A stretch of 38,974 nucleotides of DNA from an uncultured Massilia sp. (GTDB taxonomy: Bacteria > Pseudomonadota > Gammaproteobacteria > Burkholderiales > Burkholderiaceae_D). Where the stretch lies: contig CAJYQM010000260.1 in assembly GCA_913777025.1 (NCBI GenBank), forward strand, positions 1 to 38,974. Direction: 5' to 3'. This document shows, in pieces, positions 1 to 22,210 of this stretch. The stretch's first letter is position 1. Each line of letters starts with the position of its first letter. A program made the translations under genes and the position numbers. The notes under the pieces were generated by a model. The model had not been told where the DNA came from. It did no database searches and saw only the letters and a list, made by a program, of their open reading frames with translations.

Positions 1-866
1 TCTTCGCGCCAGTAGCTGCCGATCCAGAACATGACGAACATGACCAGGCCGAAGAACAGCCAGCCGTAGATGATGTGGTCGACGCCGGTCGCCAGTTCCA
101 TGCCGGACAGGTGGCCGATCATCACGATCATGTAGGCGCGCAAGCCGTTGGCGACGATCGGCACCAGGATCGACAAGCCGATGAACAGCACGCGCCGCGC
201 CGTCGAGCGGTAGGTCAGGTAGGCGTACAGGCAGCCCAGCGTGATCGAGGAGATCAGGTAGCGCACGCCGCTGCAGGCCTCGACCACCGACCAGCTGCCG
301 GTCGGGAGTTCGAAGCGGGTGCCGCTGCGCAGCACCGGGATGCCGGTGGCGCGCACCGCCCACACCGTGAAGTCGGCGGTGAACTGGATCAGCGGGGCCA
401 CGAACACGTCGCCGAAGGGGACGGCGAACAGCAGGAACAGCAGCGGGAAGGCGAGCGAGCCGGCCAGGCGCGGGCCGAGCAGGGCCAGTGCGGTGACCGG
501 GAGCATGGCCACGAAGGCGTATTGCGACACGAACTGCACCTCGCCCAGCCGCGCCGCGAACCAGCCGGCGCCCAGCACGGCCAGCAGCAGCAGCGCCGGC
601 GCGTAGGGCTTGGGCGGATACAGGCTGAAATTCTCGCGCTTGCGCCAGATGAGCCAGAGGCTGATCGGCAGGATCACGTAGCCGTGGGCGAAGGTCTCGG
701 AACTGTTCCAGATCGAGACGATCGATTCGACCGTGCCCAGGTAGAGCAGGAAGGGCGCCAGCAGGGCGACCGCGATCAGCACGATGCTGGCGCGTGACAG
801 GGGAACTGCGGGAACTGCGGGCGCGGTGGCGCTGCCGGCCACGCCGGGAGTCGGCTTCAGGAACAT
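1..866 (-). CDS. xrtA: Exosortase A (XrtA/EpsH), C-terminus cut by window edge
   Basis: Inner-membrane transpeptidase-like enzyme that is thought to recognise the C-terminal PEP-CTERM signal of exported proteins and cleave it. I translated this frame by hand because it runs off the window; 288 codons are present. It is strongly hydrophobic with several membrane segments. The catalytic triad of the family is visible: Cys198 in EACSGVRYL, Arg243 in NGLRAYMIV and His264 in GVDHIIYGW. The ATG at 866 overlaps the end of the upstream glycosyltransferase gene by 10 bases, which points to translational coupling. It is the last visible gene of the minus-strand XrtA operon. In related loci an EpsI-type domain may be fused or follow; that part would lie outside the window. 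Its likely substrate in this window is the PEP-CTERM protein at 16877-17809. Confidence 0.96.
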   Translation of the reverse strand, partial: MFLKPTPGVAGSATAPAVPAVPLSRASIVLIAVALLAPFLLYLGTVESIVSIWNSSETFAHGYVILPISLWLIWRKRENFSLYPPKPYAPALLLLAVLGAGWFAARLGEVQFVSQYAFVAMLPVTALALLGPRLAGSLAFPLLFLLFAVPFGDVFVAPLIQFTADFTVWAVRATGIPVLRSGTRFELPTGSWSVVEACSGVRYLISSITLGCLYAYLTYRSTARRVLFIGLSILVPIVANGLRAYMIVMIGHLSGMELATGVDHIIYGWLFFGLVMFVMFWIGSYWRE

Positions 867-9651: not shown

Positions 9652-9674
9652 ATGCAAAAGGGGGTGCACGTTTG

Positions 9675-10472
9675 GTGCCTGATCGAAATATCAATATGTC
9701 CGGCCGGCAAATGCGCGGCCGCATGCGGGCCTTGCTGGCCGCCTTCATCGTCGCAGCCGCTCCGGCGCTGCCGGCCGCGGATCTGACCGCGGTGGTCCCC
9801 ACCGTCAAGCGCTCGGTGGTCGGGGTCGGCACCTTCGAACGCACGCGCAGTCCTGCCACGGTTTTCGTCGGCACCGGCTTCGTGGTCGGGGACGGCCTGA
9901 GCGTCATCACGAATTCCCACGTGGTGCCGGCCAGCGTCGATACCGAACGCATGGAGCAGCTCGGCATCGTCATCGCCGATGGCGACATGGTGCGCTTCCG
10001 TCCCGCCGAATTGGTGGCGCGCGACACCGAACACGACCTGGCCTGGCTGCGCCTGTCCGGCACGCCCTTGCCGGCGCTCGAGCTGGCCGATTCGACAGGG
10101 GCACTGGAAGGGCAGGCGCTGGCCTTCACCGGTTTCCCGCTGGGCATGGCACTGGGCCTGCACGCCGCCACCCACCGCGCCACGCTGGCCGCGATCACCC
10201 CGGTCGTCACGCCCTCGCTCAGCTCGAAGAAGCTGGACCCGCGCCAGATCGCACAGCTGCAGCGCTCCTCTTATAACATCTTCCAGCTGGATGCGACCGC
10301 CTATCCGGGCAACAGCGGCAGCCCCTTGTACGATCCCGCCAGCGGCAAGGTGTGGGGCGTGATCAACGCCGTGTTCGTGAAGGGCTTGAAGGAGACGGCG
10401 ATCACCAACCCGAGCGGGATTACCTACGCGGTGCCAGTTAACTACGTCAGGGAATTACTACAACGGAAATAA
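9675..10472 (+). CDS. Trypsin-like serine protease, exported
   Basis: Protein of 265 residues with a signal peptide (RGRMRALLAAFIVAAAPALPA) and a chymotrypsin/DegP-like protease domain. The triad is visible: His82 in TNSHVV, Asp121 in TEHDLAWL, Ser214 in GNSGSPL. There is no PDZ domain, so it is shorter than DegP/HtrA. The GTG at 9675 is chosen because AAAAGGGGG ends ten bases before it; a TTG at 9672 and an ATG at 9696 are alternatives. It lies between the divergent XrtA operon and the Wza-type gene, so a role in maturation or quality control of surface proteins or the export machine is plausible but only inferred. The substrate is unknown. Confidence 0.88.
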   Translation: MPDRNINMSGRQMRGRMRALLAAFIVAAAPALPAADLTAVVPTVKRSVVGVGTFERTRSPATVFVGTGFVVGDGLSVITNSHVVPASVDTERMEQLGIVIADGDMVRFRPAELVARDTEHDLAWLRLSGTPLPALELADSTGALEGQALAFTGFPLGMALGLHAATHRATLAAITPVVTPSLSSKKLDPRQIAQLQRSSYNIFQLDATAYPGNSGSPLYDPASGKVWGVINAVFVKGLKETAITNPSGITYAVPVNYVRELLQRK

Positions 10473-11219: not shown

Positions 11220-11238
11220 CTGTCAGGTTTTTTTACAG
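11220..11238 (+). promoter_or_regulatory. Proposed enhancer (upstream activating) site for the sigma-54 promoter at 11324
   Basis: CTGTC-N5-TTTTTACAG, also readable as the dyad CTGT-N11-ACAG. The same CTGTC-N5-TTTTTACA core occurs at 17977-17995 in the same orientation relative to the other strong sigma-54 promoter (13 of 19 positions identical). The site ends 87 bases before the -24 GG. Its identity as an activator site is inferred from position and conservation; PrsR is the likely candidate protein because PrsK/PrsR with RpoN is known to control PEP-CTERM genes. Confidence 0.5.
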
Positions 11239-11323: not shown

Positions 11324-11338
11324 TGGCACAAGGATTGC
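11324..11338 (+). promoter_or_regulatory. Sigma-54 promoter of the HprK-related operon
   Basis: TGGCAC-N5-TTGCT is a near-perfect match to the RpoN consensus TGGCACG-N4-TTGCW, with GG at 11325-11326 and GC at 11337-11338 spaced by ten bases. Transcription should begin near 11350, about 53 bases before the GTG at 11403. It is the only strong promoter signal seen ahead of the six-gene operon 11403-16790. Confidence 0.85.
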
Positions 11339-11402
11339 TTGATCACGTGGAATCTGGCATTGTGCCTGCTGCCCGACTGTTTTAAAACCGAGTGAGGACC
11401 CC

Positions 11403-12029
11403 GTGGCTACCGAACACCGTCACCCAAGCGAATCTGATCCTGTCGTGCCGAATCCGGATGCGAACGCCGTACCCGCGTCCGCGGCGGCCTCGCTCTCCGA
11501 CAAGGGCAAGGCGCGCCGCCGCTTCGCCAGGGCCGGCGCCGGTGCCACCGGCGTGCTGCTGACGCTGCACAGCCAGCCCGGCATGGCCTGCACCTTTTGC
11601 GGCATCTCGGCTTCGGCGGCGGTGTCGGCGATCGGACAGAACAAAACCATCGGCACGCTCAGCCACCGCCCGGTGGCATCGGTCTGCAACGGTATCCGTC
11701 CGAGCGAATGGTGTGGCCGCACGTGGCCGGCCGGCTGCAAGCCGACCGACACCTTCGGCACGCATTTCAGCTGCAAGATCGGCAGCGCCTACGCCAACGC
11801 GACCTGCAAGGAAATCATGGAAGGCGCCAGCTGCGACCAGTCGCACATGGCCCAGTACATGCTGGCAGCTTACCTGAACGTGCTGTCCGGGCGCGTCAAC
11901 TTCCTGTCCGTCGAGTCGCTGCGCTCGGCCTGGTACGAATGGGTCACCAAGGGCTATTACGCGCCGATGGCCGGCCAACGGTGGTATGCCAACGACATGG
12001 TCACGTACCTGTACGGGACCATGGACTGA
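11403..12029 (+). CDS. Cysteine-rich Tat-like exported protein of unknown function
   Basis: I do not recognise this 208-residue protein. It has a disordered, hydrophilic N-terminus, then a twin-arginine-like motif (RRRFARAG, residues 38-45) and a moderately hydrophobic stretch ending in GMAC, which resembles a Tat signal. Eight cysteines follow at 63, 66, 95, 104, 112, 124, 135 and 144, beginning with a CTFC pair. The C-terminal 60 residues are aromatic-rich without cysteine. The GTG start has AGGA five bases upstream. As first gene under the sigma-54 promoter and four bases before the PqqD-like gene, it is the natural candidate for the protein acted on by the kinase/PqqD/nucleotidyltransferase set; that is an inference. 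A metal- or cofactor-binding periplasmic protein is an alternative. Confidence 0.82.
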   Translation: MATEHRHPSESDPVVPNPDANAVPASAAASLSDKGKARRRFARAGAGATGVLLTLHSQPGMACTFCGISASAAVSAIGQNKTIGTLSHRPVASVCNGIRPSEWCGRTWPAGCKPTDTFGTHFSCKIGSAYANATCKEIMEGASCDQSHMAQYMLAAYLNVLSGRVNFLSVESLRSAWYEWVTKGYYAPMAGQRWYANDMVTYLYGTMD

Positions 12030-12033
12030 CGGC

Positions 12034-12345
12034 GTGACCGCCAGCGAGACATGGTGCCTGCGGCAGGGGCAGACCCTGCAGTACCGGCACTGGGATGGCG
12101 AATACGTGTTGTACAACGACCTTTCCGGCGACACCCACCTGCTGGGCGATGCCGCCATCGAACTGCTGCTGGCCCTGAAGGCTGGTCCCGCCAGCCGGCA
12201 GGCGCTGGCTGCCGTGCTGGAGGCGCAGTTCGAGATCGATCCGCTCGAACTGGACCTGGAAACCGGCGAACTGCTGCGCCACCTGCAACACTTGTATTTC
12301 ATCGAACCCCTCGTCGACACCGGCGTCGAATTACCCGCATGCTGA
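12034..12345 (+). CDS. PqqD-like peptide chaperone of the HPr-rel-A system
   Basis: Small protein of 103 residues with the PqqD/RRE fold, which in known pathways binds a precursor peptide and presents it to modifying enzymes. The core reads LYNDLSGDTHLLGDAAIELLLAL and then helices ending LLRHLQHLYFIEPL, as in the PqqD-related family that accompanies HprK-related kinase A. The frame is open further upstream, but the GTG at 12034, five bases after the previous stop codon, gives the usual length; no clear ribosome binding site is seen, so coupling to the upstream gene is likely. It overlaps the kinase gene by seven bases. Confidence 0.85.
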   Translation: MTASETWCLRQGQTLQYRHWDGEYVLYNDLSGDTHLLGDAAIELLLALKAGPASRQALAAVLEAQFEIDPLELDLETGELLRHLQHLYFIEPLVDTGVELPAC

Positions 12346-13256
12346 CGGTCGCATCGCTCACCCGCGCCCAATTGGCGGCACGCCTGGCCAGCGACGGCCT
12401 GCTGGTGCAGACCGGCGCGTTCGTCAGCCGCATCCGGTCCCCGATCCGCAGCGTCGCCGACGGCATCGCCCTGCTGTATGGCGATTATCCGCTGCACGGC
12501 GCCGGCGGCTTCGCCGACTTCCACGTCGGGCTGCAACCCTCCGGCGGCATGCGCCGCTGGTACCGGCCGCAGGTCAACTTCGACCTCGACGGCCAGGAAC
12601 CGTTCGAACCGCTGCCGGAGGCGCACGCCTTTCCGATGCTGGAATGGGGCCTGAACTGGTGCATCTCGACGCGCGCCCACGCCTGGCTGATGATCCACGC
12701 CGCCGTGGTCGAACGCGACGGCCTGGCGGCAATCCTGCCGGCCCCGCCGGGCTCGGGCAAGAGCACGCTGTGCGCGGCGCTGGTCCACCGCGGCTGGCGC
12801 CTGCTGTCCGACGAGCTGGCGCTGCTGCGCCCGGAAGACGGCCTGCTGGTGCCGGTGCCGCGCCCGGTCAGCCTCAAGAACCGCTCGATCGACGTGATCC
12901 GCGGCTACGTCGCCGATGCGGTGCTCAGCCAGCCGGTCAGCAATACCACCAAGGGCACGGTGGCGCACCTGAAGGCGCCCGCGGACAGCGTCGCCCGCGC
13001 CCACGAGACCGCGCGGCCGGCCTGGATCGTGTTCCCGAAATACGAAGTCGGCGCCGCCACCTCGCTCACGCCGATCCCGCGCGCGCGCGCCTTTTTCCGC
13101 GTCGCCGACAACGCCTTCAATTACAGCCACATGGGCGCGCGCGGCTTCGATACGCTGGCCGGCGCCATCGAGCGCTGCGCCAGCTACGATTTCCGCTACA
13201 GCGACCTGGACGAGGCGATGGCGCTGTTCGCCGCACTGGAGCGGCCGCGCACGTGA
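12339..13256 (+). CDS. HprK-related kinase A
   Basis: Protein of 305 residues related to HPr serine kinase/phosphorylase, though no HPr gene is near. The P-loop is APPGSGKST (residues 135-143), followed by WRLLSDEL (about 153-160), which corresponds to the acidic segment after the P-loop in HprK. An N-terminal part of about 110 residues of unknown role precedes the kinase fold. Members occur with a PqqD-like protein in exosortase-bearing bacteria (TIGR04352), but their substrate is not established. HprK-like kinases of lasso-peptide clusters phosphorylate peptide precursors, so a peptide or protein substrate is plausible. The ATG at 12339 overlaps the upstream gene by seven bases. Confidence 0.92.
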   Translation: MLTVASLTRAQLAARLASDGLLVQTGAFVSRIRSPIRSVADGIALLYGDYPLHGAGGFADFHVGLQPSGGMRRWYRPQVNFDLDGQEPFEPLPEAHAFPMLEWGLNWCISTRAHAWLMIHAAVVERDGLAAILPAPPGSGKSTLCAALVHRGWRLLSDELALLRPEDGLLVPVPRPVSLKNRSIDVIRGYVADAVLSQPVSNTTKGTVAHLKAPADSVARAHETARPAWIVFPKYEVGAATSLTPIPRARAFFRVADNAFNYSHMGARGFDTLAGAIERCASYDFRYSDLDEAMALFAALERPRT

Positions 13257-14341
13257 AGCCGCCTGTCCTGCTCCGCCTGCTGCGCGATCCCGGCCTGGCC
13301 GCCAGCCTGGACTTGTCCGAATGGGACCTGGCGCTGCGCCAGGCCACCAGCGCCAACCTGACCCCGTCGCTGCTGGCGCTGATCGAGGAACGCGGCCTGC
13401 TGGAACAGGTGCCGGCGCAGCCGCGCGCCCAGTTCGAATGGGTGCGCGCCCTGGCCACGCGCCACCGCCAGGCGGTGCGCTTCGAGGTCGACTGCATCCG
13501 TACCGCGCTGGCCCCGGTCGCCGCGCCGCTGCTGCTGCTCAAGGGCGCGGCCTATGCCATGGCCGGGTTGCGCGCCGGGGAAGGGCGCCTGTTCGGCGAC
13601 ATCGACATCCTGGTGCCGAAGGCCCGGCTGGACCAGGTCGAGTCGGCGCTGATGCTGCATGGCTGGATCGGCACCAAGCTCGACGCCTACGACCAGCGCT
13701 ATTTCCGCGAGTGGATGCACGAACTGCCGCCGATGCAGCACGTGCGCCGCGGCAGCAGCATCGACGTGCACCATGCGATCCTGCCGGAAACGGCCCCGGT
13801 GCGCCCGGATCCGGACAAGCTGCGCGCCGGCGCGCGCCCGATTCCCGGCAGCGGCGGCCTGCTGGCCACGCTGTCGCCGTGCGACATGGTGCTGCACAGC
13901 GCCGTGCACCTGTTCTTCGACGGCGAATTCGACAAGGGTTTGCGCGACCTGCTCGACCTGCACCGCCTGCTGGAAGAGTTCGGCCGCGAGCCCGGCTTCT
14001 GGGAGGCGCTGCCGGCGCACGCGCGCGAACTGGAGCTGGCGCGCCCCTTGTTCTATGCGCTGCGCTACAGCCGGCGCCTGCTCGGCACCGCGATCCCGCA
14101 GGCGGTGCTGGATGCGGCCGCAGCGGCGGCACCGCATCCGCTCCTGCGTGCGCTGATGGACGCCTTGTTCGAACGCGCGCTGCTGCCCATGCACGCCAGC
14201 TGCGCAGACGCCTTGACCGGACCGGCGCGCTTCATGCTGTACGTGCGCGGGAACTGGCTGCGCATGCCGCCGCTGATGCTGGCGCGCCACCTCTTCCATA
14301 AAGCCTTCCTATCCAAAAAGGACGCGCCGCAGGCCGCCTGA
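13253..14341 (+). CDS. Nucleotidyltransferase family protein (NTP_transf_5 type)
   Basis: Protein of 362 residues with an N-terminal nucleotidyltransferase fold. Visible motifs are LLLLKGAAYA (about residues 93-102) and GDIDILVP with the metal-binding aspartates 116 and 118. The C-terminal half is helical (HSAVHLFFDGEFDKGLRDLLDLHRLL). The longer open frame starting at 12644 is a shadow of the kinase gene; the GTG at 13253 overlaps the kinase stop in a GTGA arrangement. Proteins of this family accompany HprK-like kinases in other clusters. The nucleotide and acceptor are unknown. Confidence 0.9.
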   Translation: MKPPVLLRLLRDPGLAASLDLSEWDLALRQATSANLTPSLLALIEERGLLEQVPAQPRAQFEWVRALATRHRQAVRFEVDCIRTALAPVAAPLLLLKGAAYAMAGLRAGEGRLFGDIDILVPKARLDQVESALMLHGWIGTKLDAYDQRYFREWMHELPPMQHVRRGSSIDVHHAILPETAPVRPDPDKLRAGARPIPGSGGLLATLSPCDMVLHSAVHLFFDGEFDKGLRDLLDLHRLLEEFGREPGFWEALPAHARELELARPLFYALRYSRRLLGTAIPQAVLDAAAAAAPHPLLRALMDALFERALLPMHASCADALTGPARFMLYVRGNWLRMPPLMLARHLFHKAFLSKKDAPQAA

Positions 14342-14358: not shown

Positions 14359-15969
14359 ATGTCCGACACTTTCGACCTGAATCAAGCCTGGGATGCCATC
14401 GTGATCGGTACCGGCATGGGCGGCGCCACCCTCGGCCATGCGCTGGCGCGCGCCGGGCGCCGCGTGCTGTTCCTGGACAAGGGACCGGCCAGCCCGGACC
14501 TGGTCGGCCGCTACGCCGAAGATGCCTTCCCGCGCGCCGAGGCGCCGCAGCCGGCGCACCGCGCGATCCTGGCGCGCGCCGGCCGCTATGCCGACCAGCT
14601 GGCGGACCGCAGCACGCCGCGCACCCAGCGCTTCATCCCCTTCATCGGCGCCGGCGCCGGCGGTTCCAGCGCGCTGTACGGCATGGCGCTGGAGCGCTTC
14701 TTCCCATCGGATTTCGCCGCCGCCGAACATTACGCGGCCCCGCCGGGCGCCAGCCTGCCGCCGCGCTGGCCGGTGTCGTATGCCGAGCTGGCGCCGTACT
14801 ACGACGCCGCCGAAGCGCTGTACCGCGTGCGCGGCAGCGCCGACCCGCTGCGCGCGGACGGCCCGCGCGAGCACCTGATGGCGCCGCCCTCGCTGACGCC
14901 GGCCGCCATCGAGATGTCGGCGCACCTGGCATCGCGCGGCCTGCACCCGTACCGCCTGCCGCAGGCCTGCGAATTCGTCGACGGCTGCACCGGCTGCCAG
15001 GGCTACCTGTGCCGGCGCGCCTGCAAGAACGATTCGCGCCGCATCTGCCTGGAGCCGGCCCTGCGCGAGCATGGCGCCCAGCTGCTGGACGCCTGCGACG
15101 TGGTGGCGCTCGAGGCCGACCGCGCGCGCGTGACCGGCGTGGTGTGCGAGCGCCACGGCGAACGCATGACCCTGTGCGCGCCGCTCGTGGTGCTGGCGGC
15201 CGGCGCCCTCGAGACCCCGCGCATCCTGCTGGCGTCGCGCTGCGCCGACTGGCCGCAGGGCCTGGCCAACGATTCCGGCCTGGTCGGGCGCTTCCTGATG
15301 CGCCACCACATCGACCTGTACCTGGTCGAACCGAAGCTGGGACGGCCGTTCGACAACCGCCAGAAGGAAATCGCGTTCAACGATTTCTACCTGAAGGATG
15401 GGAACAAGCTCGGTTCGGTGCAATCGTTCGGGCGCCTGCCGCCGGCGGCGACACTGGCGGCCTCGCTGGCCGACGACCTGCGCCAGGGCCCGGTGCCGCT
15501 GGCCGCACCGCTGTTCTCGCTGGCGCGGCCCTTCGTGACGCCGGTGCTGCGCCAGCTGGTCGAGCGCCGCTACATCCTGGCCACCACGCTCGAGGATTTC
15601 CCGTATGCCGACAACCGCGTCGTACCGGGCAAGGACGCGCGGCTGGACATCGAGTACCGCCTGCACCCGGGAGACCGCGAACGCATCGCCGCAATGCGCG
15701 CCGCCATGAAGGACGTGCTGGCGGGCTACGGCTACAAATTGATCAAGCAGGCCGAGAACAACCAGCGCATCGCCCACGCCTGCGGCACCTGCCGCTTCGG
15801 CGACGACCCGGCCACCAGTGTCCTCGACCGCGACAACCGCGCGCATGGCCTGGCCAACCTGTACGTGGTCGACAGCGCCTTCTTCCCGTCGTCCGGCGGT
15901 ACCAATCCGAGCCTGACGATCGCCGCCAACGCCCTGCGCGTGGCGGCGCGCCTGCTGGCGCAAGCCTGA
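14359..15969 (+). CDS. GMC-family FAD-dependent oxidoreductase
   Basis: Flavoprotein of 536 residues. The FAD-binding Rossmann motif is VIGTGMGGATLGHALARAG (residues 16-34) with the acidic LFLDKG strand end near 40. The C-terminal GMC part has HACGTCRFGDDPATSVLDRDNRAHGLANLYVVD and then SSGGTNPSLTIAANALRVA. A cysteine-rich segment (Cys 204, 210, 213, 218, 222, 230) sits in the middle, resembling the C-x2-C clusters in some dehydrogenase-type GMC proteins; whether it binds iron-sulfur is not known. Seventeen bases separate it from the nucleotidyltransferase gene, so it is in the same operon. An alcohol or sugar may be its substrate; nothing narrows this. Confidence 0.9.
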   Translation: MSDTFDLNQAWDAIVIGTGMGGATLGHALARAGRRVLFLDKGPASPDLVGRYAEDAFPRAEAPQPAHRAILARAGRYADQLADRSTPRTQRFIPFIGAGAGGSSALYGMALERFFPSDFAAAEHYAAPPGASLPPRWPVSYAELAPYYDAAEALYRVRGSADPLRADGPREHLMAPPSLTPAAIEMSAHLASRGLHPYRLPQACEFVDGCTGCQGYLCRRACKNDSRRICLEPALREHGAQLLDACDVVALEADRARVTGVVCERHGERMTLCAPLVVLAAGALETPRILLASRCADWPQGLANDSGLVGRFLMRHHIDLYLVEPKLGRPFDNRQKEIAFNDFYLKDGNKLGSVQSFGRLPPAATLAASLADDLRQGPVPLAAPLFSLARPFVTPVLRQLVERRYILATTLEDFPYADNRVVPGKDARLDIEYRLHPGDRERIAAMRAAMKDVLAGYGYKLIKQAENNQRIAHACGTCRFGDDPATSVLDRDNRAHGLANLYVVDSAFFPSSGGTNPSLTIAANALRVAARLLAQA

Positions 15970-16001
15970 CCTTCATTTCACATCCCGACAAGGAGCCAAG
16001 A

Positions 16002-16790
16002 ATGCGGCTTTCCGACATCAAAGGACATTGGGCGCTGGTGACCGGCGCCTCGTCCGGCATCGGCCACGAGTTCGCGGTCCAGCTGGCGCGCGCCGGCGCC
16101 AACCTGGTGCTGGTCGCGCGGCGCGAAGAGCGCCTGCAGGCGCTGGCGCGCACGCTGGAACAGGAGCACGGCATCGCGGCGCGCGTGGTCGCGCTCGACC
16201 TGGCCGGATCCGGCGCCGTGGACAGCCTGCGCGCGCAGCTGGGTGACGCCGGCATCCGCGTACGCCTGCTGGTGAACAATGCGGGCGCCGGACGCTGGGG
16301 CCGCTTCGAAGGCACGCCAGCTGCCGACTATGAACGCATCAACGCGCTGAACACGACGGCACTGGTGGCGCTGTGCCGCGGACTGTTCGACGACCTGGCG
16401 TCGTTCCCGGCCAGCGCCGTGATCAACGTGTCCTCGGCGGCCGCCTACCAGCCGGTGCCCTACATGGCGATGTACGCGGCCAGCAAGGCCTTCGTGCACA
16501 GCTTCAGCCAGGCGCTGCACGGCGAGTGGAAGGCGCGCGGGATCCTGGTCCAGACCCTGGTGCCGGGACCGACCGAGAGCGAATTCGACGACAAGGCCGG
16601 CGCCTACGAGAGCGCCATCACGCAGCGCGACACGCCGCAACAGGTGGTAAGGGCGTCGTTGGCGGGGCTGGACGGCGGGGCGCCGGTGGTGGCGGTGGCA
16701 AAGGGGACGTACAAGCAGCGTTTCTTTGCCGGGCTGTTCCCTCCGGCGATGGTGATCCGGGAAGTCGGGAAGATGTTCAAGCCCAAGTAA
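16002..16790 (+). CDS. Short-chain dehydrogenase/reductase (SDR)
   Basis: Classical SDR of 262 residues. The cofactor motif is VTGASSGIG (residues 13-21), NNAG lies at 92-95, the catalytic serine is in INVSSAAAY (144/145) and the YxxxK pair is Tyr158 and Lys162. The arginines after the second beta strand (LVARREER) suggest NADPH preference. The start has AGGAG (15990-15994) upstream. It is the last gene of the sigma-54-driven operon, 32 bases after the GMC gene, and is followed by a strong terminator. The substrate is unknown. Confidence 0.92.
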   Translation: MRLSDIKGHWALVTGASSGIGHEFAVQLARAGANLVLVARREERLQALARTLEQEHGIAARVVALDLAGSGAVDSLRAQLGDAGIRVRLLVNNAGAGRWGRFEGTPAADYERINALNTTALVALCRGLFDDLASFPASAVINVSSAAAYQPVPYMAMYAASKAFVHSFSQALHGEWKARGILVQTLVPGPTESEFDDKAGAYESAITQRDTPQQVVRASLAGLDGGAPVVAVAKGTYKQRFFAGLFPPAMVIREVGKMFKPK

Positions 16791-16876: not shown

Positions 16877-17809
16877 TTAGGCCTTTTTCGACTTGCGGCG
16901 GGTTGCGCCGACCAGGCCCAGCATGCCCATGCCCAGCAGCATCATGCTGCCCGGTTCCGGCACGTTGGTGAAGGTGTTCGAACCGTCGACCTTGAAGACG
17001 ATGTCGTTGGCGCCGACTTTGTAGTCGCCGAACATGCTGCCGCCGCCCATGTGGAAGCCGGTGGTGTTGGCGGCGTTCGCCGGGTAGTTCAGGGTCGATT
17101 CGAAGTTGATGCCGAACAGCATGTCGGAGATGCCCGACAGGTAGGCGTTGTTGATGAAGTCGCCGTTGGCTGCATCGACGGTCGCGTGCAGGCGAGCCGA
17201 ACCCTGGCCGGTGTTGGTGCCGTTGATCGCGGTGAACTGCGAGGTGGTGCCGTCCTGGACGATGGTCAGCAGGGCGATCATTTCGCCGTCATCGAAGCCG
17301 GTACCATCGGCGGTGTTCGAGTTCGCTGCTGCGTCGTAGTAGATCGCGACCTTGTTGCTGCCGGCGCCCAGGCCGAAGATCGAGGTCGGGTTGCCGCCGA
17401 TGGTGCCCGACGAGGTCACGACTTCATTCAGGCGAGCGACGATGGTGTATTCGAACGAGGTACCCGGGTCTTTCTTGCCGTTCGAGGTGGTGTCCAGGTC
17501 GCGCAGGGCCAGTTGCGGGTCACCGCCGCCGACGCTGGTCAGGTTGGCCTGGTACAGGAACTGGAAGCTCGCGCCGACCGGCAGCTGGGCTTGCGAGTTG
17601 AACGGACCAACGCCGATCGCCACGCCGCTGCCTTGTTGGTTCCAGTCCAGGCTGGTTGCGCCGGACACCAGCACGTCGCCATTGGCGTTTTTCAGGTCGA
17701 AGTTGCTGCCGATACCGTTGTTCGGGACAACTTCAGCGTGAGCGGCGGTGGCGAAAGTCATGCCGATTGCTGCAGCGAGGGGGATCAGTTTGCGAAACGA
17801 AATCTTCAT
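16877..17809 (-). CDS. PEP-CTERM sorting-domain exported protein (PepA-like)
   Basis: Secreted protein of 310 residues, the likely substrate of exosortase A. It has an N-terminal signal peptide (LIPLAAAIGMTFATAAHA) and at the C-terminus the full sorting signal: VPEPGS (283-288), a hydrophobic stretch MMLLGMGMLGLVG and a basic tail RRKSKKA. The body (about 30-280) is Gly/Asn/Thr/Ser-rich and cysteine-free, with FDLKNANGDVLVSGATSLDWN near the start. It resembles the flocculation-associated PEP-CTERM protein PepA of floc-forming betaproteobacteria; that name is a family-level guess. The ribosome binding site GGAG lies eight bases upstream. It has its own sigma-54 promoter (17889-17903), so expression is likely tied to biofilm or floc formation. 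Confidence 0.95.
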   Translation of the reverse strand: MKISFRKLIPLAAAIGMTFATAAHAEVVPNNGIGSNFDLKNANGDVLVSGATSLDWNQQGSGVAIGVGPFNSQAQLPVGASFQFLYQANLTSVGGGDPQLALRDLDTTSNGKKDPGTSFEYTIVARLNEVVTSSGTIGGNPTSIFGLGAGSNKVAIYYDAAANSNTADGTGFDDGEMIALLTIVQDGTTSQFTAINGTNTGQGSARLHATVDAANGDFINNAYLSGISDMLFGINFESTLNYPANAANTTGFHMGGGSMFGDYKVGANDIVFKVDGSNTFTNVPEPGSMMLLGMGMLGLVGATRRKSKKA

Positions 17810-17888
17810 GTTGGCTCCAAAATTATTCGGCGATATTTATTCGGTGTTACAGCCCAGCTTGTCGTTGCGGGCGTATGCCAACTACTAA

Positions 17889-17903
17889 GCAAGGGGTGTG
17901 CCA
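17889..17903 (-). promoter_or_regulatory. Sigma-54 promoter of the PEP-CTERM gene
   Basis: On the minus strand TGGCAC-N5-TTGCT, a near-consensus RpoN site with correct GG-N10-GC spacing. Transcription would start near 17877, giving a leader of about 68 bases before the ATG at 17809. Confidence 0.85.
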
Positions 17904-17976: not shown

Positions 17977-17995
17977 TTGTAAAAATTTTCGACAG
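17977..17995 (-). promoter_or_regulatory. Proposed enhancer site for the PEP-CTERM sigma-54 promoter
   Basis: On the minus strand CTGTC-N5-TTTTTACAA, matching the site at 11220-11238 at 13 of 19 positions. It lies 75 bases before the -24 GG, against 87 for the other copy; the 12-base difference is close to one helical turn. It also lies just after the stop codon of the glycosyltransferase gene at 18000. Confidence 0.5.
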
Positions 17996-19383: not shown

Positions 19384-20454
19384 TTATTTCAACAGCGCTT
19401 CGACCGGCTTGCGCAGCGAGCGCGACTGGGGCGCGGGGCCGGCGCCGAGCCGGCCCATGAAGACCGGGTGGCCGGGACCGCTGCCGACCAGCTTGCGCAG
19501 GCGCGGCTGCAACTGGCGCGCCGCGCCGTGCAGCTTGTCGATTTTCGAAAAGCTCTTGTTGTGCTGCAAGTACCAGGAAAAGATCAGCGGCGTCATTTCC
19601 GGCTGCATCGCCAGGCCCAGCTGGGTGAGCGTCAGCCAGAAGCGCTGCACCGCGCGGCCGGCGGCAACATGGTCCTCGACCGTGGCAGGGGCCTGTTTCG
19701 CGATGATGACGAAGTGGGCGGCGCAGGCCAGGCCCGGGACCAGGTCCATCTGCAGGCGCGGCGCCCAGGTGCCCATCAGGCGGTTCATCGTGGAGAGCCG
19801 GCCCCAGCTGGTCATCGCCCATTTCATCAGGCGCAGCGTGGCCTGGTCGACGCCGAGCGCCTGGTCGGGCACGCGATCGTTGCTGTGGCGCGCGTTCCAG
19901 TGGATGATGCGGCGGTGCACCTCGTAGGCTTCCGGCATCGTCAGGCGCAGCTTGGCATTCGAATACATCAGGCGCGCCGCGTTCAGCTTGCCGCCAAAGC
20001 CATCGATCCAGCGCACCTCGAAGCCGGCGCCCACGGCGGCTTCCAGCGCCTGTTTCTCGTCCGTGCGCAGGGCGCGCGTGCTCATCGGGCGGCGCTGTAC
20101 GCTGCGCGACTGGATCGCGCCGAGCAGGGGGCTGGGCTTGACCTGCACGTCCGGCACGAAGCGCACGTCGAATTCCGGATTCGTGTCGCTGCTGGCCGGG
20201 CGGCGCGCGACGTCGGCGCGCAGGCCCTGGGCGCTGGCGGCGATCGCGATCGTCTCGAGCAGGGCGCCGTGCGAGATCTGGCTGGGACGGCCGGCGAAAT
20301 CGTAGACGCAGTGTTCGCGCGTGTCGCGGCAATGCACGACCAGGTGGTCGGGCGCGGCGATCTCGAAGTGCCAGGCCTGCTCGTTGTCGCCGCTCGGTGC
20401 CCAGCGCGCCAGGTCGAGGATGCGGTACAGCGAGTCGGGAATCGCGGCACTCAT
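19384..20454 (-). CDS. Nitroreductase-like FMN protein
   Basis: Protein of 356 residues of the nitroreductase superfamily. The N-terminus ILDLARWAPSGDNEQAWHFEI is the FMN-binding motif (Arg/Ser/Asn around RWAPSGDN), and LQHNKSFSKIDKLH and other parts fit a divergent member. Its length exceeds simple nitroreductases (about 200 residues), as in MoeY/Rv1355c-like proteins, where a ThiF domain is fused to such a domain. Here the two are separate genes that overlap by four bases (ATGA), which decides the start at 20454. The open frame to 20814 is a shadow. An oxidation or reduction of an acyl amino acid, or of a ThiF-activated product, is possible; the reaction is unknown. Confidence 0.85.
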   Translation of the reverse strand: MSAAIPDSLYRILDLARWAPSGDNEQAWHFEIAAPDHLVVHCRDTREHCVYDFAGRPSQISHGALLETIAIAASAQGLRADVARRPASSDTNPEFDVRFVPDVQVKPSPLLGAIQSRSVQRRPMSTRALRTDEKQALEAAVGAGFEVRWIDGFGGKLNAARLMYSNAKLRLTMPEAYEVHRRIIHWNARHSNDRVPDQALGVDQATLRLMKWAMTSWGRLSTMNRLMGTWAPRLQMDLVPGLACAAHFVIIAKQAPATVEDHVAAGRAVQRFWLTLTQLGLAMQPEMTPLIFSWYLQHNKSFSKIDKLHGAARQLQPRLRKLVGSGPGHPVFMGRLGAGPAPQSRSLRKPVEALLK

Positions 20455-21338
20455 GCCCGCACTTCCTTGCCGGCCAGTTCCTTGGTCATCTGGCGCTTGG
20501 CGACGCTGATCATCAGGCGGTGCAGCAAGTTGCCGTTGCCGCCCGGACGCCAGGTATGGGACAGCTTGTTGCGGTAGGCATCGAACTGGACGCCGTGCGG
20601 CGCGGCCAGCACCTTGCCGCGTCCGAGCAGGATCTTGAGGGCTTCGGTGGCGACGATGCCGGCGCACAGCTGGCAGGCCATGAAGGTCGAGGGACCGCGG
20701 CGCTCGGCAAAATTGACCGCTTCCGGCACCACCAGGTAGGGGCGGTGCAGGCCGGCCGGGGCCAGGCCGACCACGAAACGGATCGCCTTGTCCAGCTCCG
20801 GGAGGTTCCCCCACTGGAAATACTCTTCGAAGGTCATCTGGCCCGGCATGAAGTTCAGCAGGGCCGCGCCCATCCCGAGCGGCGCCGCGGTGGTGGCCGG
20901 GATGCCGAGCTCGGCACAGGCCGCAAACGTTTGCTGACGGGCGTCGAAGGCAAAGAAATCGAGCGCGTCGACGTACAGGTCGACCCCGGCCAGGAATGCC
21001 TTCAGGTTGCCCTTGTTGACGCCTTCGTCGAAGATCTTGATGTCGATCTCGGGATTGATGTCCTTGGCCATGCGCGCCAGCACCTCGGCCTTGGGCTGGC
21101 CGACGGTCGACATCATGGCGCCGACCTGGCGGTTGAAGTTGACGACGTCGAAGCTGTCGAAATCGGCGATGTGGAAGTTGGCCACACCCAGGCGTGCCAG
21201 GGTCAGCAAGTGCACGCCGCCGACCCCGCCGCCGCCGGCAATGGCGACGCGCTTGCCGCGCAGGGTCGATTGTTCTGCCGGCGTCACCCAGCCGATATTG
21301 CGTGAAAACGCTTGTTCATAGCGGAACGGATTGTTCAT
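20451..21338 (-). CDS. ThiF/E1-like adenylyltransferase
   Basis: Protein of 295 residues of the ThiF/MoeB/HesA family, which activates carboxylates (usually protein C-termini or peptides) with ATP. The nucleotide-binding loop AIAGGGGVGG (about residues 32-41), the acidic Asp59 in HIADFDSFD, the NFNRQVG motif (Asn-x-Asn-Arg-Gln, about 67-73) and Lys83 are all present. The usual zinc-binding CxxC pairs are not evident, though CQLCAG occurs late. No ThiS/MoaD-like carrier with a C-terminal GG is encoded nearby, so the substrate may be a small acyl amino acid. It starts 32 bases after the FeeM-like gene. Confidence 0.9.
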   Translation of the reverse strand: MNNPFRYEQAFSRNIGWVTPAEQSTLRGKRVAIAGGGGVGGVHLLTLARLGVANFHIADFDSFDVVNFNRQVGAMMSTVGQPKAEVLARMAKDINPEIDIKIFDEGVNKGNLKAFLAGVDLYVDALDFFAFDARQQTFAACAELGIPATTAAPLGMGAALLNFMPGQMTFEEYFQWGNLPELDKAIRFVVGLAPAGLHRPYLVVPEAVNFAERRGPSTFMACQLCAGIVATEALKILLGRGKVLAAPHGVQFDAYRNKLSHTWRPGGNGNLLHRLMISVAKRQMTKELAGKEVRA

Positions 21339-21370
21339 CGATGCGGAAACGGATTATGGGGATGCCCGCA

Positions 21371-22150
21371 TCATACCGCGTGCTGTTCGTCCATGCGCAT
21401 CAGGCGGTTGCGAATACCCATTTCTTCGCGCGGCGAGAAGAAATACGGATAGAACGAGCGTTCGCTAACCGTATTGTCCGCGCTGAAGGTGCCGCCGAAT
21501 TTCTGGATCTGCTCCGTGACGAAATCCAGGTTCACGCGCAGCAGATAGGCCGGGGCGTCGACCCGCGGATTGATTTTCAAATCGCCTTCCTGCTGAAAAC
21601 CGAGCATGCGTTCGTAAAAACGGCGATGGCGCGGATTGACTTCGATGACGATATCGGTGCACTGGTGGATATCGCGGCCGTAGATCACGGCCAGGTGGAA
21701 CAGGTTGGCCAGCGAGGTTTTCGAGCGGACCGACGGGTCGAACGCCAGCTTGGTGAACTCGCACAGGCGCGCGCCCTTGTTGCGGTGCGCGTCCAGTTCT
21801 TCCTTGAAGATCTGGTCGGCCATCAGGCCGATCGGCGAATCGATGCCGATGGTGAGCGTGCCCACCACTTCGCCTTTGTCGGTTGCGGTGAGGGTGATGC
21901 GGTTCGGGTCGTCAGTCAGTTGGTGCGTGCCGGCATAACCGCGCCAGGCATACATCTTGTTAATCAGCATACTGGCTGAATTACGCCCGTCAGCGGTATC
22001 GGTAAGCCGGATTCCGTACGAATCGTGGTTCACGATAACATCCTCATATTGAGAGGGCGCCATATTATCGCGATCACTGAAAACATGAGCGTCCGATAGG
22101 GATGCAGCCGATTCACCCTCTGGATCCTTGAAATCGTCGAAAGTCGTCAT
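21371..22150 (-). CDS. N-acyl amino acid synthase, FeeM type
   Basis: Protein of 259 residues with a GNAT/autoinducer-synthase-like fold related to FeeM, which makes long-chain N-acyl amino acids (such as N-acyl tyrosine) from acyl-ACP. Visible features are YGIRLTDTADGRNSASMLINKMY (substrate entry), the acyl-site strand region EVVGTLTIGIDSPIGLMAD, ARLCEFTKLAFDP and DIVIEVNPRHRRFYERMLGF. Such synthases are known to be linked with PEP-CTERM/exosortase genes in Gram-negative bacteria. The ATG at 22150 is chosen over one at 22165 because GGGGA precedes it at a good distance. It is followed by ThiF-like, nitroreductase-like and glycosyltransferase genes. Confidence 0.85.
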   Translation of the reverse strand: MTTFDDFKDPEGESAASLSDAHVFSDRDNMAPSQYEDVIVNHDSYGIRLTDTADGRNSASMLINKMYAWRGYAGTHQLTDDPNRITLTATDKGEVVGTLTIGIDSPIGLMADQIFKEELDAHRNKGARLCEFTKLAFDPSVRSKTSLANLFHLAVIYGRDIHQCTDIVIEVNPRHRRFYERMLGFQQEGDLKINPRVDAPAYLLRVNLDFVTEQIQKFGGTFSADNTVSERSFYPYFFSPREEMGIRNRLMRMDEQHAV

Positions 22151-22210
22151 CGCAGGATTCCCCATTTGTAGAAAGCACCCGGAAAAATCGCCCGGGAGCC
22201 AGGTTGACTG

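Follow-up and report, generated by a model that had tools for sequence, protein, structure and literature searches.

The operon considered here lies on a 38,974-nucleotide stretch of DNA, hereafter the window, from an uncultured Massilia sp. (NCBI GenBank assembly GCA_913777025.1, contig CAJYQM010000260.1), which is one contig of a 4.7-Mb assembly. It stands directly behind an exopolysaccharide export gene and comprises four genes, encoding a protein with a signal of the twin-arginine translocation (Tat) type and three proteins that may recognize and modify it:

11403..12029, forward strand: precursor gene with a GTG start, 208 residues, eight cysteines, RRRF twin-arginine motif; type A (defined below), candidate substrate
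12037..12345, forward strand: PqqD-like peptide binder (TIGR04353, 57.4 bits, cut-off 35)
12339..13256, forward strand: HprK-related kinase A (TIGR04352, 413 bits, cut-off 200)
13253..14341, forward strand: nucleotidyltransferase-fold enzyme (PF14907, 187.7 bits, cut-off 31.2, E 3.6e-55)

Few-base overlaps join the PqqD-like, kinase and nucleotidyltransferase genes. An initial annotation, made from the letters alone, had described four linked genes headed by an exported-type protein with a twin-arginine-like signal and eight cysteines; all four are present, the three enzyme and binder genes score over their model cut-offs, and both signal and cysteines are seen in the 208-residue protein. The window is a member of the HPr-rel-A system (TIGR04352 kinase plus TIGR04353 PqqD-like chaperone), for which both models are over cut-off. 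These models name the kinase and the chaperone, and the Tat-signal substrate families fall outside NCBIfam, as six scanned precursors of three types had no match there. The window precursor had no match in NCBIfam or Pfam scans, none of 52 type A members matched Pfam (0/52), and the nearest named relative in the genome scan was a protein of Massilia sp. YIM B02763, with 56% identity over the best segment. The exported protein families look undescribed.

Genes for the kinase and the PqqD-like protein, and in most cases for the nucleotidyltransferase, come paired with the gene of one Tat-signal protein, and in the family studied this protein is essentially absent without those enzymes. Of 195 same-family genomes, 50 have a TIGR04352 match above the cut-off. 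Whether the precursor gene always adjoins this kinase was the check proposed in the initial annotation, and a search of these genomes with a profile termed A1 placed it beside the kinase in 50/50 kinase genomes. The other 145 genomes gave two weak matches, to the leader alone (G059 and G163), and the pairing is significant even when these are counted (Fisher p ~1e-44). A1 was made of 52 of the 61 type A proteins, and most of the 50 pairings lie inside it by construction, so that the informative part is the absence in kinase-less genomes, where at most 17 first-look candidates were scored per genome. In a tblastn search with the window precursor, a relative stood beside the kinase in 29 of 31 loci, the window's own included, and a similar leader protein occupied the same place in the remaining two.

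Across a sample of the phylum, TIGR04352 was over cut-off in 61 of 398 genomes. The locus was followed in 109 genomes (50 same-family, one named Massilia and 58 others), where hidden Markov models found a precursor-like gene in 93, a PqqD-like gene in 96 and a nucleotidyltransferase in 95, with the same gene order recurring; the neighbour count took same-strand genes only, so that 93/109 leans towards association, and G366, a kinase fragment, was left out. Typical distances from the kinase centre were ~1,060 bases before for the precursor, ~600 bases before for the PqqD-like gene and ~1,000 bases after for the nucleotidyltransferase. Eight further loci, all of the group f45, carry a different Tat-leader protein at the precursor position, as read by eye. 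The outcome that would have spoken against one conserved operon with its first gene as likely substrate of the others, namely that this gene is usually absent from HprK-related loci, was looked for and did not occur, and the pairing supports the proposal. Of the 109 kinases, 99-100% retain the P-loop (G140-K141-S142-T143) and the acidic pair D158-E159, and 97-98% of the 95 nucleotidyltransferases retain D116, D118 and D171. The kinase aligns with solved HPr kinases (E 0.03), and the predicted active-site residues of both enzymes are intact.

At least three types of mature part, dependent on lineage, are found behind the Tat-type leader across the phylum. Type A, the window's type (61 proteins), has a Ser-x3-Ser tail, and many members also contain C-x-G-x-S-P-G-Y-W. 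In type B (28 aligned), the mature part is ~110 residues long, with three cysteines present in every member and [ST]-C-W-x-S at the C-terminus, and type C (nine aligned) carries T-C-[FY]-A-S-L-Q near its end. Types B and C have an invariant serine near the C-terminus, a placement that resembles lasso peptides phosphorylated by HPr-kinase homologues. Two parts of the window precursor are of particular concern:

11514..11588, forward strand: Tat leader core, R38 to A62, with R38 and R39 invariant in 52 sequences and a profile match to the type B leader
11613..11627, forward strand: codons S71 to S75, candidate modification site; the sole invariant mature columns in 52 sequences, at a predicted local distance difference test (pLDDT) score <50

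The twin-arginine signal is present in the window precursor, its two arginines are invariant in the 52 relatives, and the protein is a predicted Tat substrate. R38, R39, S71 and S75 are the four invariant columns of the 52 type A proteins. The Ser-x3-Ser pattern, a letter class picked after inspecting the sequences, occurs in 59 of 61 type A proteins vs 8% of control windows. In the predicted model of the window protein, pLDDT is <50 at residues 68-83, which puts S71 and S75 in a tail predicted to be flexible, and the model becomes confident from about residue 90, where a domain of ~120 residues is helical with a small strand pair. No Protein Data Bank (PDB) structure matched the type A model, for which the best hit in a viral library had E 0.29, or the type B model (mean pLDDT 69.8), and searching PDB sequences with the profile of type A returned one chance-level row. 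The initial annotation had also treated cysteine richness as a defining trait, and this has to be given up: C66 (92%) and C95 (85%) are the only cysteines with good conservation among the 52 relatives, the richness is lineage-specific, and what is kept instead is the Tat-type leader, plus Ser-x3-Ser in type A.

When the profiles of types A and B are compared, the leader alone aligns (E 3.8e-8), and types B and C give E 5.1e-5; as a control, type A was set against MsrP-like Tat leaders, with E 1.8e-4. An aligned leader threonine is kept in 83% of type A and in all of type B, and a gap-free count finds a threonine at R+16 in 54/92 (the G374 precursor, with no usable leader, was left out of leader counts). 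This likeness suits a shared docking signal for types A and B, and is unclear for type C.

The operon is preceded by elements that recur elsewhere in the window:

11221..11237, forward strand: 17-nt activator box (TGTC-N8-TTACA) of PEP-CTERM regulon type
11324..11339, forward strand: sigma-54 -24/-12 site, perfect match, 86 nt after the box
17978..17994, reverse strand: second 17-nt box, upstream of a PepA-like PEP-CTERM gene
17888..17903, reverse strand: second perfect sigma-54 site, same PepA-like gene

Two such boxes in the window compare with 0.07 expected. The box pattern was derived from both window sites, so that the window is no independent test of it, and the other genomes are. Among same-family loci, 40 of 51 have the exact box and 42 of 51 a sigma-54 site with up to two mismatches, vs 0 and 4.0, respectively, in shuffles; among loci of other families the counts are 6 of 40 for the box (0.1 in shuffles) and 19 of 40 for the sigma-54 site (2.5), with mononucleotide shuffles as the controls throughout. 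The window alone is weak evidence for sigma-54, with three sites at up to one mismatch against 1.4 expected, and a local alignment of its two intergenic regions did not rise above shuffles. The motif of the PEP-CTERM regulon is described in PMC1569441 as a 17-nt element ending in TTTACA, a spacer of 32-92 nt and a sigma-54 motif, for which PrsR is the suggested activator; the operon's box, 86-nt spacing and sigma-54 site match this layout (motif 1) as given there. According to PMC9850573, a PEP-CTERM gene with a TGGCAC element depends on RpoN. The operon carries what is, by its motifs, a PEP-CTERM regulon control region. The sigma-54 control suggested in the initial annotation is supported by a site that recurs in relatives, and can now be assigned to this regulon. 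The PepA-like PEP-CTERM protein itself (16877-17809, reverse strand) scores 69 bits, just below the cut-off of 80; PepA is a flocculation protein.

An XrtA/PEP-CTERM exopolysaccharide locus occupies the window's left part; there, XrtA-associated NCBIfam models for a FemAB-like protein, an ATPase, an outer-membrane protein, a tyrosine autokinase, a chain-length determinant and an export protein matched over cut-off, together with the following gene:

3-779, reverse strand: XrtA

XrtA was over cut-off in 48 of 50 same-family kinase genomes vs 23 of 145 others, and in the phylum sample an exosortase was found in 32 of 61 kinase genomes vs 48 of 337 others; in the 29 further kinase genomes of that sample, many of them incomplete, none was seen. 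XrtA/exopolysaccharide neighbours lay within the fetched stretch at 39 of 42 same-family loci and 22 of 26 others outside f45, in a count that covered 79 loci, 30 of the 109 stretches being <10 kb.

Several other genes stand near the operon or its relatives. A gene for a tetratricopeptide repeat (TPR)-sulfotransferase lies directly 3' of the kinase in 8/8 f43 and 3/4 f60 loci (11 genomes; e.g. L107 and L138), which points to another, or an additional, modification of type B precursors. An asparagine synthase follows in several f40, f47 and f60 loci; the one scanned, beside a type B operon, was considered as a lasso cyclase and rejected, as it scores 942 bits with TIGR03108 (cut-off 817) and 287 with the lasso cyclase model (cut-off 525), and is by these scores an XrtA amidotransferase. 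The gene of a Trypsin_2 protease (9672-10472, forward strand) recurs at XrtA loci, whether or not these contain the kinase operon, and was rejected as a dedicated processing enzyme, strong matches (E <=3e-38) being present in 18 of 23 kinase-less XrtA genomes. A GMC oxidoreductase and an SDR-like open reading frame (ORF; 14359-16790, forward strand) lie downstream of the operon on the same strand. The oxidoreductase was not retained as an operon member, since a relative was near the kinase in at least 3 of 109 loci, a lower bound because 30 of the stretches are <10 kb and several end soon after the operon.

At 19387-22165 (reverse strand), genes for a nitroreductase-like protein, a ThiF-type E1-like protein and a FeeM-type N-acyl amino acid synthase are direct neighbours and look like the PRK14851/PRK14852 proteins in split form; near the kinase, ThiF-cluster genes occur in 26 of 109 loci and the FeeM-like cluster in 19. 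A plasmid search found no window precursor, and found the nucleotidyltransferase in four records, three from Vibrio alfacsensis. On one of these plasmids (L182, 6001-9080), a 274-residue Tat-type ORF and an unannotated 84-residue ORF stand ahead of an annotated HprK-related kinase A, a nucleotidyltransferase is present too, and this version adjoins 2-aminoethylphosphonate genes. The match of a relative's motif to a Rhodococcus plasmid was at chance level (E 0.8).

The operon can be compared with several known systems. With phosphorylated and phosphoglycosylated lasso peptides (paeninodin with PadeK; pseudomycoidin with PsmK and PsmN) it shares an HPr-kinase homologue, a nucleotidyltransferase, a PqqD-like RiPP recognition element (RRE; RiPP, ribosomally synthesized and post-translationally modified peptide) and a serine acceptor, which is a candidate here. 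In pseudomycoidin, according to two reviews, PsmK phosphorylates the C-terminal serine and PsmN then attaches one or two hexoses to the phosphate, and they leave possible a true nucleotidyl transfer followed by action of a host enzyme (PMC9266682, PMC8498205). Sulfotransferase genes are reported in some lasso clusters too (PMC8498205). Unlike the short precursor of the lasso clusters, the protein here is a 208-residue Tat-signal protein with a folded model, and, as the initial annotation had remarked, no lasso cyclase was found: an NCBIfam scan of 20 window proteins gave no match to that model. With the PEP-CTERM/XrtA system and its PrsK-PrsR-sigma-54 regulon, control region and neighbourhood are common to the operon; the precursor has no PEP-CTERM domain match in NCBIfam or Pfam, and carries a Tat-type signal instead. 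Bufferins and other RiPPs modified by MNIO (multinuclear non-heme iron-dependent oxidative) enzymes have, according to PMC12452194, a signal peptide in the leader's place, proposed recognition by a partner and some protein-sized substrates, but use Sec rather than Tat, and different enzymes.

Overall, we regard the four genes, with a probability of about 0.5, as an operon devoted to protein modification within the PEP-CTERM/XrtA exopolysaccharide regulon, acting by leader docking, serine phosphorylation, capping and Tat export. The PqqD-like protein would bind the Tat leader in the cytoplasm and delay export, the kinase would phosphorylate a serine of the flexible tail (Ser71 or Ser75 in the window), and the PF14907 enzyme might, by analogy, cap the phosphate with a hexose or a nucleotidyl group. 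The folded, modified protein would then leave via Tat and act in the periplasm or the exopolysaccharide matrix. As Tat transports proteins that are already folded, an ATP-dependent modification in the cytoplasm before export would fit. Phosphorylation of the precursor is likely; the capping step and a connection to polysaccharide are candidates only. It is doubtful, in our view, that the system extends to a novel class of phosphoglycosylation in bacteria, acting on a Tat-exported protein, in which the phosphorylated serine tail receives a sugar or nucleotide cap, the RRE proofreads the Tat signal, and the product is a priming or anchoring site joining exopolysaccharide to protein, with lineages having swapped the cargo domain.

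Several points weigh against a dedicated modification operon of this kind. The chemistry, docking and destination are inferred, and the membership of PsmN in PF14907 is an assumption. Types B and C lack Ser-x3-Ser, the similarity of the A and B leaders was set against one control (MsrP-like), and that of A and C (E 5.5e-4) is at the level of this control. Leader identity is 0.56 vs 0.57 in MsrP-like proteins of the same 12 genomes (30 were searched, and a locus in the expected size class turned up in 15; L174, with no frame of the expected length, and L167 and L170, which were wrong, were excluded), and super-conservation of the leader was dropped as proof of RRE binding because the control equals it; mature-part identity in these genomes is 0.35 vs 0.79. 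Eight of the 58 loci outside the family show no precursor (G216, G263, G275, G319, G331, G382, G407 and G461), the kinase of G382 standing at a contig end, and in f13 the PqqD-like ORF is degenerate or was not detected by the model. In addition, 0/11 f45 loci have XrtA-type neighbours; all 11 f45 genomes contain an exosortase match somewhere.

An unlikely alternative, though one that draws on the most constant parts of the system (binder, kinase and Tat leader), is export control with no lasting modification, in which the PqqD-like protein is a Tat signal chaperone and reversible HprK-like phosphorylation times export. HprK proper both adds and removes phosphate. Signal-peptide chaperones of Tat substrates are known as well (PMC8428690), but the nucleotidyltransferase at 95 of 109 loci, and the sulfotransferase that follows the kinase in the f43 and f60 loci, are left unexplained. 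There is little to recommend a small secreted peptide, a strict-sense RiPP cut from the mature protein as a short modified piece: the variable mature part behind a leader would suit it, as would the set, known from lasso clusters, of RRE-type binder, kinase and nucleotidyltransferase, but in type A the mature part is predicted with confidence to fold into a domain of ~120 residues, and no dedicated protease was found, the nearby trypsin-like one being shared with most kinase-less XrtA genomes. Finally, a reading in which a sugar or polysaccharide intermediate of the exopolysaccharide pathway is the substrate of kinase and nucleotidyltransferase, the Tat protein being a separate matrix protein that shares the operon, would agree with the exopolysaccharide genes near most loci outside f45 but is improbable, since 9 of the 11 f45 loci, which lack such neighbours, have a Tat-leader protein before the PqqD-like gene, the PqqD-like binder implies a peptide substrate, and the precursor was not found without the kinase in the 195 genomes.

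No paper naming this kinase/PqqD/Tat-protein system was found in the open-access literature, and two RRE surveys (PMC12710340, PMC7470986) gave no match for kinase terms. The NCBI models name the kinase and PqqD pair but no substrate, and the present analysis offers one testable substrate per genome, a candidate acceptor serine and a regulon. If the proposed chemistry is right, phosphorylation and glycosylation of the lasso type would reach folded proteins exported by Tat, and a protein-modification branch would be added to the exosortase/exopolysaccharide system, which is important in the formation of flocs.

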